64,000 bases of DNA from NCBI RefSeq assembly GCF_900155385.1, contig NZ_LT699744.1:96771-160770 (forward strand), given 5' to 3'. Every line of letters begins with the position of its first letter. Position 1 is the stretch's first letter. The notes beneath the pieces were generated by a model, which was not told the origin of the DNA, ran no database searches, and was given only the letters and a program-made list of their open reading frames with translations. The position numbers were made by a program, and so were the translations under genes. Of this stretch, positions 29,255-45,542 are shown one piece after another. Source of the stretch: Vreelandella massiliensis (GTDB taxonomy: Bacteria > Pseudomonadota > Gammaproteobacteria > Pseudomonadales > Halomonadaceae).

Positions 29255-33138
<3,884 letters not shown>

Positions 33139-33293
33139 GGCCATTGCCCATCGCTGCATGTAAGCGATAGCTTCAGTTGTTGTAAGAGATCTCTTACAAA
33201 AGCCGACGATATTGGCGCTAAACGCTGTATGAAAAAGCGCAATAAGGCGCCGATGCTCACCTAACATACTGTTTTTATTAGCCACCCTCCATC

Positions 33294-33319
33294 AAAAGCG
33301 GACCGATCGGTCCGCTTTT
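33294..33319 (+). terminator. Terminator of the eno transcript (perfect palindrome)
   Basis: A 26-bp perfect palindrome with half-site AAAAGCGGACCGA; transcription would give a very stable GC stem ending in CUUUU, followed by another T4 run at 33324-33327. It separates eno from the small-RNA promoter that starts 17 nt later. Confidence 0.85.
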
Positions 33320-33335
33320 GGCGTTTTGGGCCGCC

Positions 33336-33363
33336 TTGAGCCTAAGCGTAAATCTGACACAAT
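33336..33363 (+). promoter_or_regulatory. Predicted sigma-70 promoter of the RsmZ-like RNA
   Basis: TTGAGC at 33336-33341 and CACAAT at 33358-33363 with a 16-bp spacer, placing transcription start near 33370. It lies just after the eno terminator and before the first GGA motif. No obvious GacA-type upstream palindrome (TGTAAG...CTTACA) is visible in the DNA immediately upstream; the TGTAAGAGATCTCTTACA palindrome at 33179-33196, about 175 nt upstream, is the best candidate for one. Confidence 0.6.
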
Positions 33364-33369
33364 GTGCTC

Positions 33370-33537
33370 AGGACAAGGGGAGGCAAGGACGCTTTCAAGC
33401 AGGATGCAACGGGATGTTAGGGTGCGCCGGGCGATACAGTGACGTAGGCCCCGGCAGGGACAGCACCCTAGGAAGTATTGATGCAGGGAGCATCAAAGGG
33501 AGTGCTTGGAGCGGGCGGCCTACGGGCCGCTTTTTTT
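33370..33537 (+). ncRNA. Predicted CsrA-sequestering small RNA (RsmZ/CsrB type)
   Basis: About 168 nt with ten GGA triplets, several in CAGGA, AAGGA or CAGGGA contexts (33371, 33379, 33387, 33402, 33412, 33458, 33471, 33487, 33499, 33508). A hairpin presents AGGGA in its loop on a perfect 7-bp stem (TTGATGC 33478-33484 with its complement 33490-33496), the ideal CsrA site. A second stem (TAGGGTGC 33418-33425 with 33463-33470, plus GCCGGG with CCCGGC inside) leaves AGGGACA as an unpaired bulge. It ends in a GC hairpin (33515-33530) and seven Ts. In Pseudomonas aeruginosa rsmZ lies beside fdxA; here fdxA, mutS, cinA and recA follow in the same order. Prediction from sequence only. Confidence 0.8.
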
Positions 33538-33661
33538 ATGCCTGAAACTTTCTTCGAACGTCCTATCCGCTCACATCAAAAGAGTAAGTCGCAAGCGAGG
33601 GTGGCCAGCAGAAGGCGGCTCTGGCATCTTGAGCGGACACGACGGAGCGGAGCTGGCCCCC

Positions 33662-34003
33662 ATGTCATCGAGTAAAACAGAATCGAGTAAGGCAGAACCG
33701 ACCAAGACGCTGAGCAAGACCAAAACAAGCTTTTACCGCCGCCTCTATGTGGCCCATCTGATCGCGCGTGGCATTGCCAACGTTCCTGCCCTTATGGCCG
33801 CTACCGGCATGCCCCGGCGCACCGCTCAGGATACCCTGAATGCCCTGGCCGAGCTCGATATCCACTGCGAATTCGAACCCGAACCAGGAGAGCGCCACAA
33901 CAGCGGCCGCTACGTGATTCGCGACTGGGGGCCGATCAAGCCGGAGTGGGTGGCTGAGCAGGCCGAATGCCTGCGTCTAGCGCTTGGCTACCCCGCTTTA
34001 TGA
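33662..34003 (+). CDS. Winged helix-turn-helix DNA-binding protein
   Basis: Small (113 residues) predicted transcription factor. A Ser/Thr/Lys-rich tail (MSSSKTESSKAEPTKTLSK) precedes a winged helix: YVAHLIARGIANVPALMAATG, then the recognition helix MPRRTAQDTLNALAELDIH, then a wing with GERHNSGRYVIRDWGPI. The frame is open upstream to 33506, but that part overlaps the small RNA terminator; ATG 33662 has GGAGCGGAG upstream and is preferred. It shares ATGA with the downstream lipoprotein gene, so the two are translated together. Targets unknown. Confidence 0.75.
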   Translation: MSSSKTESSKAEPTKTLSKTKTSFYRRLYVAHLIARGIANVPALMAATGMPRRTAQDTLNALAELDIHCEFEPEPGERHNSGRYVIRDWGPIKPEWVAEQAECLRLALGYPAL

Positions 34004-35058
34004 CGGCCAGGTTTCTCCCTTGCGGCCTTGCCGTGCTTTTGCTGAGCATGCTTTTTCTGACTGCTTGCGGCGCGGCTCGCCCGCCGCTACCCGATAGGGG
34101 TGACAAGAACAGGGGTGACGAGAACGTAGGCGGCGAGACGGCGCGCCTGGCATCAGGCCGAGTCATTGCCGAAGACGGCTACGCGCTGCCCTTGCATCGC
34201 TGGTCGGCGCGGCAGGAAAGTGGCCAGCCGGCGGCGATCGTGCTGGGCGTACATGGCTTTAACGATCACGGCGGAAGCTTTGAGCGGCTCGCTAACCGCC
34301 TCACTCCCCAAGGCATCACCCTCTATGCCCATGATCAGCGTGGTTTCGGCAACACCGCAAGCCGTGGCCGCTGGCCTGGCCACGAGCGGCTCGTGAAGGA
34401 TGTGCGCTTGATGGTGCGCCTCTTGCGTGAGCGCCATCCCGATACTCCCTTGTACCTGGCGGGCCACAGCATGGGGGGAGCGGTGGTGCTACTGGCCATG
34501 GAGGATGGCCCCCTTGATGTTGCTGGGAGCGTGCTGATTTCACCGGCGGTTTGGGGGCTTGCGGACATGCCGTGGTATCGCCGCTTTGCGCTCTGGCTTG
34601 GCGTACGGCTCTTTCCCGGGCTCAGTTTCTCCGGCGATATCGTGGAGACGCTAGGCATAAGGGCGACCGACGATCCGGAGATTCGCCGCCAGCTGGCAAA
34701 AGACCCAAGGGTATTACACCATGCTCGAGTGGATGCCCTGCATGGGGTGAGCGTGGCGATGGAGCGCGCGCTTGAGGCCGCGCCCGCCCTGCAGGGGCCG
34801 GCGCTTCTGCTCTACGGCGAGAAGGATGATCTCATTCCCCCCGAGGCCATCTGTCATCTGCTCGAAAAGCTCCCGCCAGCCGACGAGGGCCGCTGGCGTA
34901 TGGCGCTCTATCCCGAGGGCTATCATATGCTGACCCGCTACACGCGGCGTGAACAGACCGCCGCCGATATTGGCGCCTGGCTTTTCGACCCTGCCGCTAC
35001 GCTGCCTTCGGGGCATGCGCTGGATAAAAAGGCGGCTCAACGGCGCCTATGTCGCTGA
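34000..35058 (+). CDS. Lipoprotein alpha/beta hydrolase (monoacylglycerol lipase-like)
   Basis: Predicted membrane-anchored serine hydrolase of 352 residues. The signal ends in a lipobox (LFLTAC, Cys near residue 21) followed by a polar linker. The core resembles monoacylglycerol lipases: VHGFNDHGGSFERLANRL, YAHDQRGFGNTASRGRWPG, nucleophile GHSMGG, Asp in YGEKDDLIPPEA and His in YPEGYHML. The start overlaps the winged-helix gene (ATGA). It ends 3 nt from the convergent fdxA. Likely acts on lipid or ester substrates in the periplasm or at the envelope. Confidence 0.85.
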   Translation: MTARFLPCGLAVLLLSMLFLTACGAARPPLPDRGDKNRGDENVGGETARLASGRVIAEDGYALPLHRWSARQESGQPAAIVLGVHGFNDHGGSFERLANRLTPQGITLYAHDQRGFGNTASRGRWPGHERLVKDVRLMVRLLRERHPDTPLYLAGHSMGGAVVLLAMEDGPLDVAGSVLISPAVWGLADMPWYRRFALWLGVRLFPGLSFSGDIVETLGIRATDDPEIRRQLAKDPRVLHHARVDALHGVSVAMERALEAAPALQGPALLLYGEKDDLIPPEAICHLLEKLPPADEGRWRMALYPEGYHMLTRYTRREQTAADIGAWLFDPAATLPSGHALDKKAAQRRLCR

Positions 35059-35061
35059 GCG

Positions 35062-35391
35062 TTACGCGTCTCGCTCAAGCTTCTCCAGCTTGCCGGGCTT
35101 GCCATCCCACTCTTCGGCGTCCGGCAGCGGGTCTTTCTTCTCGGCGATGTTGGGCCATACTTCTGCGAGTTCGGCGTTGATCTCGACAAAGGGCTCTTGC
35201 CCCTCGGGCAGTTCATCCTCGGAGAATATCGCCTCGGCGGGGCATTCGGGCTCGCACAGCGCGCAGTCGATGCACTCATCCGGGTGGATTACCAGGAAGT
35301 TAGGGCCCTCGTAGAAGCAGTCGACCGGGCAAACTTCCACGCAGTCGGTGTATTTGCATTGGATGCAGTTCTCGGTCACGACAAAGGTCAT
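35062..35391 (-). CDS. fdxA: Ferredoxin FdxA (7Fe-8S type)
   Basis: Small electron carrier with one 3Fe-4S and one 4Fe-4S cluster. The N-terminal half has [20 protein letters not shown] and [16 protein letters not shown], the two cysteine sets; the C-terminal half is acidic with ELAEVWPNI and a KPGKLEKL tail as in the Azotobacter/Pseudomonas FdxA family. 109 residues. Transcribed toward the lipoprotein lipase and away from nothing but mutS upstream on the same strand (219 nt gap). The fdxA-mutS-cinA-recA order is that of pseudomonads. Confidence 0.95.
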
Positions 35392-44876: not shown

Positions 44877-45065
44877 ATGCTCATCTTAACCCGCCGCGTT
44901 GGTGAAACCCTGATGATCGGCGATGAAATTACCGTTACCGTGCTCGGAGTAAAAGGCAATCAGGTCCGTATTGGCGTTAACGCGCCGAAGGATGTTGCTG
45001 TTCACCGTGAAGAGATTTATCAACGTATTCAGCGTGAGCGCAGTACCGAAGGTGACGACGAGTAA
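44877..45065 (+). CDS. csrA: Carbon storage regulator CsrA/RsmA
   Basis: RNA-binding global regulator that represses or stabilises mRNAs through GGA motifs. 62 residues: [18 protein letters not shown] with the RNA-contacting Arg at position 7-region, [18 protein letters not shown] and the second RNA-contact strand [12 protein letters not shown] (Arg44 region). GAAGGAGA precedes ATG 44877; the upstream frame to 44826 is unsupported. Position after lysC and before tRNA-Ser/tRNA-Arg genes is the E. coli and Pseudomonas arrangement. A candidate sponge RNA for it is predicted at 33370-33537. Confidence 0.97.
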
Positions 45066-45209: not shown

Positions 45210-45302
45210 GGAGAGGTGGCCGAGTGGCTGAAGGCGCTCCCCTGCTAAGGGAGTATAGGGTTTATAGCCCTATCGAGGGTTCGAATCCCTCTCTCTCCGC
45301 CA
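45210..45302 (+). tRNA. tRNA-Ser (GCU anticodon)
   Basis: 93 nt including encoded CCA. Acceptor GGAGAGG pairs with TCTCTCC (one G-T), anticodon stem CTCCC/GGGAG presents GCT, a long variable arm (TATAGGGTTTATAGCCCTAT) marks a serine tRNA, and the T arm is GAGGG-TTCGAAT-CCCTC. It reads AGC and AGU codons. A possible -10 TAATAT with a GC-rich discriminator lies just upstream, typical of stable RNA promoters. Confidence 0.97.
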
Positions 45303-45354
45303 ACCGGTACGCTATCCCAGCAACGTAATCGTTAACTGAGATAGCAAAAGGTAA

Positions 45355-45431
45355 GCGCCCGTAGCTCAGCTGGATAGAGTACCTGACTACGAATCAGGTG
45401 GTCGGAGGTTCGAATCCTCCCGGGCGCGCCA
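45355..45431 (+). tRNA. tRNA-Arg (ACG anticodon), copy 1
   Basis: 77 nt with encoded CCA. Acceptor GCGCCCG/CGGGCGC, D arm AGCTCAGCTGGATAGAGT, anticodon stem CCTGA/TCAGG with ACG in the loop (modified to ICG by TadA, reading CGU/CGC/CGA), T arm CGGAGG-TTCGAAT-CCTCCC region. 52 nt after tRNA-Ser, probably one transcript. Confidence 0.97.
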
Positions 45432-45465
45432 CCTAGCAAGTACGCTTAAAGTGAAGTTTTGTTTT

Positions 45466-45542
45466 GCGCCCGTAGCTCAGCTGGATAGAGTACCTGACTA
45501 CGAATCAGGTGGTCGGAGGTTCGAATCCTCCCGGGCGCGCCA
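45466..45542 (+). tRNA. tRNA-Arg (ACG anticodon), copy 2
   Basis: Identical over all 77 nt to the copy at 45355-45431, separated by 34 nt. Tandem identical tRNA-Arg(ACG) genes after csrA and tRNA-Ser also occur in E. coli (argV-Y-Z-Q). Ends nine bases before a terminator. Confidence 0.97.

Follow-up and report, generated by a model that had tools for sequence, protein, structure and literature searches.

The CsrB and CsrC RNAs of E. coli have a GGA-rich sponge design, which is also the predicted design of the halomonad RNA described here. The likeness to these RNAs (RF00018, RF00084) extends to the control region: as given in the available part of PMC4682653, UvrY binds the DNA of csrB and csrC at a far-upstream palindrome, with upstream contact regions at -222 to -142 (csrB) and -223 to -143 (csrC) and the consensus TGTAAGNNNNNNCTTACA. 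The counterpart in Pseudomonas is rsmZ. The genes of its region include fdxA, mutS, nlpD and rpoS (figure legend of PMC4353343), and an excerpt of PMC3395598 places an rsmZ-like gene together with fdxA downstream of rpoS. For the halomonads, Table 1 of a 2020 review (PMC7366521) lists a GacS-GacA pair of Halomonas anticariensis that controls quorum sensing, exopolysaccharide and biofilm, with CsrA in brackets and the sponge RNA entered as 'Unknown'. There was no report of the present RNA among the matches listed in the open-access literature (from which subscription papers are mostly absent); PMC12889724 and PMC13414033 mention Halomonas, with no such RNA in the portions available. Strain FP35 of H. 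anticariensis carries the RNA locus (L047), which provides a concrete gene to delete or overexpress in this species. Bioplastics and ectoine are produced industrially in halomonads, and a switch acting on CsrA would therefore be of practical use.

We analysed a 64-kb stretch of halomonad DNA (hereafter the window), in which a preliminary description had placed the sponge RNA of the CsrA system at 33370-33537. Our analysis bears this out: the stems covary, several GGA triplets are invariant, a promoter-like pair and a terminator are conserved, a palindrome stands upstream, the chromosomal position is that of rsmZ, and csrA, gacA and a likely gacS are present. The interval very probably encodes a CsrA-sponge RNA of the CsrB/RsmZ kind, and that it is an RNA gene at all is well supported by sequence comparison. 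The coordinates of the features are given in Table 1.

Table 1. Predicted features of the candidate sponge RNA locus and of its neighbouring genes in the window.
Feature	Position	Strand	Basis
eno (enolase), upstream gene	31849..33138	+	TIGR01060 661 bits, cut-off 300
Second, degenerate palindrome copy (3 mismatches), 22 bp further upstream	33159..33176	.	same-genus loci
Palindrome TGTAAGAGATCTCTTACA, predicted GacA/UvrY binding site	33181..33198	.	exact match to published consensus TGTAAGNNNNNNCTTACA
-35 element TTGAGC	33336..33341	+	conserved, 16-nt spacer
-10 element CACAAT	33358..33363	+	CACAAT in 42/59 loci
Predicted CsrA-sponge small RNA gene, RsmZ-like	33370..33537	+	conserved block, halomonad loci, covariation
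CAGGATGCAACGGGATGT, two weakly paired GGA sites	33400..33417	+	CAGGATGC invariant, 49/49 sequences
Two-tier long hairpin, GGA in bulge	33417..33471	+	fold; both helices covary (helices 1, 2)
Pairings of the two-tier stem	33417-33425 with 33463-33471; 33426-33431 with 33450-33455	+	fold
Bulge AGGGACA	33456-33462	+	GGA 33458-33460 invariant, 49/49 sequences
GGA-loop hairpin TTGATGC-AGGGA-GCATCAA, 7-bp stem	33478..33496	+	fold; stem covaries; loop GGA invariant, 49/49
Intrinsic terminator, stem 33514-33520 / 33525-33531, T7 33531-33537	33514..33537	+	terminator scan, fold, helix 4
Winged-helix (HTH_43) gene, between RNA and fdxA	33662-34003		
Alpha/beta hydrolase gene, between RNA and fdxA	33967-35058		
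fdxA, converging on the RNA gene	35062..35391	-	NF045490 178 bits, cut-off 135
csrA, predicted target protein of the RNA	44877..45065	+	NF002469 119.6 bits, cut-off 73

The predicted RNA is about 168 nt long, from a start set 7 nt after the -10 box to the end of the T7 tract. Our recount agrees with the ten GGA triplets given earlier for this interval. The background of the window is a mean of 1.76 GGA per 168 nt (maximum 10), neither strand has a non-overlapping 168-nt stretch with ten elsewhere in the 64 kb, and dinucleotide shuffles of the RNA have ten in 22 of 2000 cases. The fold energy is -64.5 kcal/mol (z = -2.76), which 3 of 200 shuffles match in stability. As expected of a sponge, the many GGA triplets include several in loops or unpaired: nine of the ten are mostly unpaired by prediction (0.58-1.00) and one is paired (0.05), the two sites upstream of the long hairpin having unpaired probabilities of 0.93 and 0.95. 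The same prediction across 68 homologues gives 0.64 for GGA versus 0.38 for other triplets, with GAG and AGG at 0.51. The AGGGA loop on its perfect 7-bp stem, the second AGGGACA in a bulge and the T7 tract were all found as they had been described, and the hairpin at 33478-33496 is predicted to be the strongest CsrA site of the RNA. The earlier remark that the interval has no good reading frame also holds over the homologues. Homologues with an open frame number 10, 19 and 29 of the 68 for the three forward frames and 22, 22 and 28 for the three reverse ones; lengths also vary modulo 3, and no reading frame is kept.

An alignment of the interval from other halomonads, suggested in the preliminary description as a check, shows that the GGA-loop hairpin is conserved in 49 sequences. 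For this alignment, we dropped one locus in which the motif was not found (L038), five non-halomonad loci, and those with a terminator outside the search pattern (L046, L068, L071, L087, L090 and L094), which left 86 RNAs, 68 of them distinct, and 49 of these 68 were aligned. All 49 sequences share four unchanged elements, namely CAGGATGC, the GGA of the bulge, that of the hairpin loop and the one ahead of the terminator. Over the 25 stem pairs, 97.1% of the cells are paired and changes on both sides occur in 16, including all five counted pairs of the GGA hairpin stem (helix 3), counts that are inflated by relatedness. None of 500 shuffles reaches any of five covariation measures. When partners are slid, pairing drops to 38-52%, in a control that keeps relatedness but favours the alignment-derived structure. 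The GGA cores are kept while the stems change, which argues against a conserved small RNA with another job (base-pairing, or serving mainly as a CsrA-bound target) that is GGA-rich by chance. The 49 aligned sequences also provide the seed of a family that Rfam 15 failed to detect in the scanned sequences.

The gene appears, from its sequence, to be non-coding with its own promoter and an intrinsic terminator. A CACAAT-like search pattern matched the -10 element in 59 of the 64 loci examined (it failed in 5), and in 58 of those 59 the best -35 element stands at a spacer of 16 nt, chosen as the best of 15-19 tried. The pair matches 8 of the 12 consensus bases, and a single-sequence promoter scan reported only the terminator on the + strand. 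We nevertheless consider the promoter TTGAGC-16-CACAAT credible because it is conserved across loci. The promoter-like elements noticed earlier are hence retained as a conserved pair, although not as something that the single-sequence scan would have reported. The RNA starts about 230 nt past eno, on the same strand, and the weakness of its promoter by consensus would also suit an RNA that lacks a promoter and derives from the eno transcript, as a processed 3' product or as its long 3' end. An inverted repeat near 33295-33320, between the palindrome and the RNA promoter, is the likely eno terminator; it ends before the RNA. Together with the conservation of the -10 and -35 elements at their 16-nt spacing, and with the 11 kb that separate eno from rsmZ in a Pseudomonas-type genome (G239), this makes an origin from the eno transcript extremely improbable.

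The palindrome lies about 180 nt upstream of the predicted RNA start. The preliminary description had put it two bases off, at 33179-33196 instead of 33181-33198, and was right about its resemblance to a GacA/UvrY upstream site: it matches the published consensus exactly, and we treat it as a predicted site on the strength of that match. It is kept at every one of the 63 named halomonad loci, exactly in 24 and with one, two or three mismatches in 9, 26 and 4, respectively, at -207 to -178 when counted from a start set 30 nt before CAGGATGC. Shuffled upstream regions have a copy with <=2 mismatches in 1.2% of cases and with <=3 in 11%. The second copy is found, with 2-3 mismatches, in the 12 other same-genus loci. 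Among eleven further halomonad loci, mostly diverged, four have a palindrome with <=2 mismatches and seven have none of that quality within 300 nt. The distance of ~180 nt had been regarded as a weakness of the assignment. This doubt is answered because the UvrY contacts of csrB and csrC and the palindromes of all 13 rsmZ loci stand equally far upstream, i.e., the distance is canonical.

The genome of the window has six exact copies of the palindrome, and the copy in the window is the only one with a GGA-rich RNA: no CsrB-like RNA was seen by eye within about 450 nt on either side of the other five. Exact or one-mismatch palindromes also occur in six genomes of genus g4 (L221-L226), in surroundings that lack eno, fdxA and any GGA-rich RNA, and may there have other uses or other binders. 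With these five copies and six genomes lacking the RNA, we rejected the palindrome alone as a marker of sponge genes; because it is not diagnostic by itself, it was used as evidence only together with position.

The distribution of the RNA follows the halomonads. A scan of 84,980 named genomes for the RNA-core motif gave 68 loci, 63 in halomonad records (Halomonas, Vreelandella, Onishia, Billgrantia, Litchfieldella, Franzmannia and Bisbaumannia) and 5 elsewhere. The latter are as expected of chance, since they have no palindrome with <=3 mismatches up to 300 nt upstream and no eno or fdxA match. BLASTN with 33340-33540 matched 70 of the 121 genomes of the family (E <= 0.01), many of the weaker matches being to the terminator only; the genus is fully represented, with matches in each of its 13 genomes (that of the window is one of these). 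Across these 13 genomes, conservation peaks at the palindrome; the RNA, taken from its -10 region through the terminator, ranks next, and conservation drops beyond 33550. A covariance model built from the RNA homologues (R1) matched 87 of the 121 genomes at >=46 bits, leaving 34 without such a match, a count that is not independent because R1 was built from some of the genomes searched, including that of the window. At E <= 0.01 the number is 102, but the extra 15 matches have <=31 bits and were not counted. R1 finds one locus, with no second copy, in the genome of the window. In a sample of the order, in a search again not independent of the sequences behind R1, it matches 11 of the 12 genomes of the halomonad family at >=52 bits; in the remaining 281 genomes no match exceeds 31 bits, and 43 of them have weak ones (23-31 bits). 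The RNA had no match as a query against plasmids. In another genus of the family, three tandem matches to the RNA model stand between eno and fdxA (L236, G031 C1:1221641-1222182).

The genetic context is similarly stable. At each of the 63 named halomonad loci, eno precedes the RNA in the same orientation, and at 62 fdxA follows on the opposite strand, the exception (L068) having only 236 nt before the contig end. The gene fdxA starts 149-416 nt after the RNA core in 61 loci and 1,785 nt after it in L105. The eleven further, mostly diverged loci have eno upstream in every case and fdxA downstream within the stretch in nine. The preliminary description had the RNA between eno and fdxA, which is correct for the upstream side; in the window, however, the next gene is not fdxA, as a winged-helix gene and a hydrolase gene intervene. 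Neither has a match at any of the 63 named loci. The segment 33662-35058 is likely a local insertion, because these loci lack it and 61 of the 62 with fdxA have that gene no more than about 0.4 kb away.

The Rfam models, whose use had also been proposed as a check, did not place the RNA in a family. Over the whole window, only three tRNAs reached gathering, and no family of the CsrB/RsmZ kind did. PrrB_RsmZ (RF00166, gathering 44 bits) has no match in the genome of the window or in the 5 same-genus genomes of the order sample. None of the 12 halomonad-family genomes of that sample has a PrrB_RsmZ match above the cut-off, and the weak match in one of them (G020; 28 bits) lies elsewhere than the RNA. 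CsrB (RF00018), CsrC (RF00084) and RsmV (RF04320) are below gathering in the window and at 22 homologous loci, and scans at relaxed thresholds likewise gave nothing of this kind above a curated score. The CsrC model, which is longer (255 positions), matches one homologue of the 14 loci scanned (L029) at 28.8 bits, far below its gathering value of 61, with E = 5.6e-5; eight further homologous loci have no match of the CsrC-like kind. The hairpin at 33480-33494 resembles a hairpin of RsmV at a noise level (10.3 bits, E 1.9, 15 nt); RsmV is described in the available part of PMC7366521 as independent of GacS-GacA. Because no Rfam family is above gathering and PrrB_RsmZ finds nothing in the genome, we regard the RNA as a diverged representative, so far undescribed, of the CsrA sponges. 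The lack of a CsrB/RsmZ family above cut-off is also what an RNA with another job would show, but such an RNA would hardly be expected with a palindrome at the csrB/rsmZ distance, in the position of rsmZ and with a subthreshold CsrC match at one of 14 loci, and we hold it to be very unlikely. The combination of gene address and activator spacing finds sponge RNAs that the models miss.

We compared this address with that of rsmZ. In the order sample, 12 of the 293 genomes have a PrrB_RsmZ match over the cut-off, all of them of family f21, which we take to be Pseudomonadaceae. The 13 rsmZ loci of these genomes all have the palindrome, at -190 to -178 and with <=1 mismatch (4 exact), and nine have fdxA close downstream on the opposite strand. 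The gene order of G239 is pyrG-kdsA-eno-(11 kb)-rsmZ-fdxA(-)-mutS(-)-cinA-recA; a second Pseudomonas-type genome (G362) has only fdxA and mutS of these genes in the 38 kb read, so that the full block from pyrG to recA was seen in one of the two genomes read. The window genes eno, pyrG, kdsA, mutS, recA and fdxA were checked against NCBIfam, and a further one, with no NCBIfam match at the strict threshold used, is presumably cinA. The kdsA frame seems to shift near its end (about 31650-31716), by a real break or a sequencing error; the match to its family ends at residue 241 (out of 262) and at profile position 231 (out of 281). The halomonad RNA stands beside fdxA-mutS in the pyrG-kdsA-eno ... 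recA block, in the same strand relation as rsmZ. It occupies the rsmZ slot in that the adjacent gene order matches, without the eno-rsmZ stretch of G239.

The resemblance to RsmZ (RF00166) thus covers the downstream fdxA(-)-mutS(-) with its strand relation, the distance of the palindrome, the richness in GGA and the terminator. The halomonad RNA differs in being about 30-60 nt longer, in its two-tier long stem with the bulge GGA, and in having eno as its upstream gene where Pseudomonas has rpoS (excerpt of PMC3395598). It is probably rsmZ itself, kept at its original site ever since halomonads and pseudomonads shared an ancestor, with a sequence and a fold rewritten beyond the reach of the Rfam models; what quite likely stayed, on this descent, are the address, the activator site about 180 nt upstream and the GGA sites. 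A sponge RNA that arose by convergence beside fdxA, and does not descend from rsmZ, would account for the differing fold with its two tiers and GGA bulge, for the at most 31 bits that R1 reaches outside the halomonad family, and for the PrrB_RsmZ results given above. This concerns descent only, and we find it rather unlikely, as such a newcomer would have had to settle in the same place of an otherwise conserved gene block, on the same strand and with the same palindrome distance. At 8 of the 13 rsmZ loci, R1 also has same-strand matches that overlap the rsmZ RNA, albeit weakly (E 4e-4 to 0.016 over the stretches searched) and likely in part through the terminator. If descent from rsmZ is true, CsrA sponges would be selected for their GGA sites and wiring and not for their fold, and a search by address should turn up many 'missing' sponges.

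A sponge of this kind is expected in a genome that encodes CsrA and GacS/GacA, and we found candidates for all three, gacS being likely but below its equivalog cut-off. The genome of the window has one canonical csrA, whose ATG is at 44877 as previously stated and whose product is identical to a solved CsrA chain (1y00) at 51 of 58 aligned residues. The gacA gene (G000 C2:210197; 291 bits, cut-off 280) is followed by uvrC. A search for PF09984 (sCache_4) did not find GacS, and a search for Hpt led to a 900-aa hybrid kinase (HisKA-HATPase-REC-Hpt) beside cysM. Its best NCBIfam match is BarA (608 bits, under the equivalog cut-off of 890), and it is likely to be GacS. In the circuit that these genes suggest, GacS would phosphorylate GacA, and phosphorylated GacA would bind the palindrome at 33181-33198 and activate the RNA promoter from about 180 nt upstream, leading the RNA to accumulate. 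Several of its GGA sites would then hold CsrA dimers; with CsrA sequestered, the mRNAs that it represses would be released.

Some further observations touch on these genes. Downstream of csrA, in its orientation, are three tRNA genes (45210-45539 of the window). The genome also has a second, divergent csrA (G000 C2:1895080-1895220; L150:1429-1647) that is over the cut-off of the Pfam CsrA family and reaches 54.9 of the 70.1 bits required by the csrA equivalog. Its neighbours in a phage-like stretch are dUTPase, DNA polymerase and primase-like genes, and it is likely a phage-borne CsrA relative. Four of the six exact TGTAAGN6CTTACA copies lie within 126 kb of one contig (G000 C2:1836117, 1853559, 1912452 and 1961694) and flank this phage-like csrA on both sides, with no GGA-rich RNA seen beside them. 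Finally, AAGGA-type repeats are found on contig C3 of G000 (L011:1885-1940, minus strand), some 100 nt past a one-mismatch palindrome and immediately ahead of iteron-like plasmid repeats, with no terminator noticed by eye. They have a relative on a plasmid of Halomonas sp. KG2 (69.9% identity over 77% of the query), and this array could be another CsrA-binding RNA or a feature of the origin.
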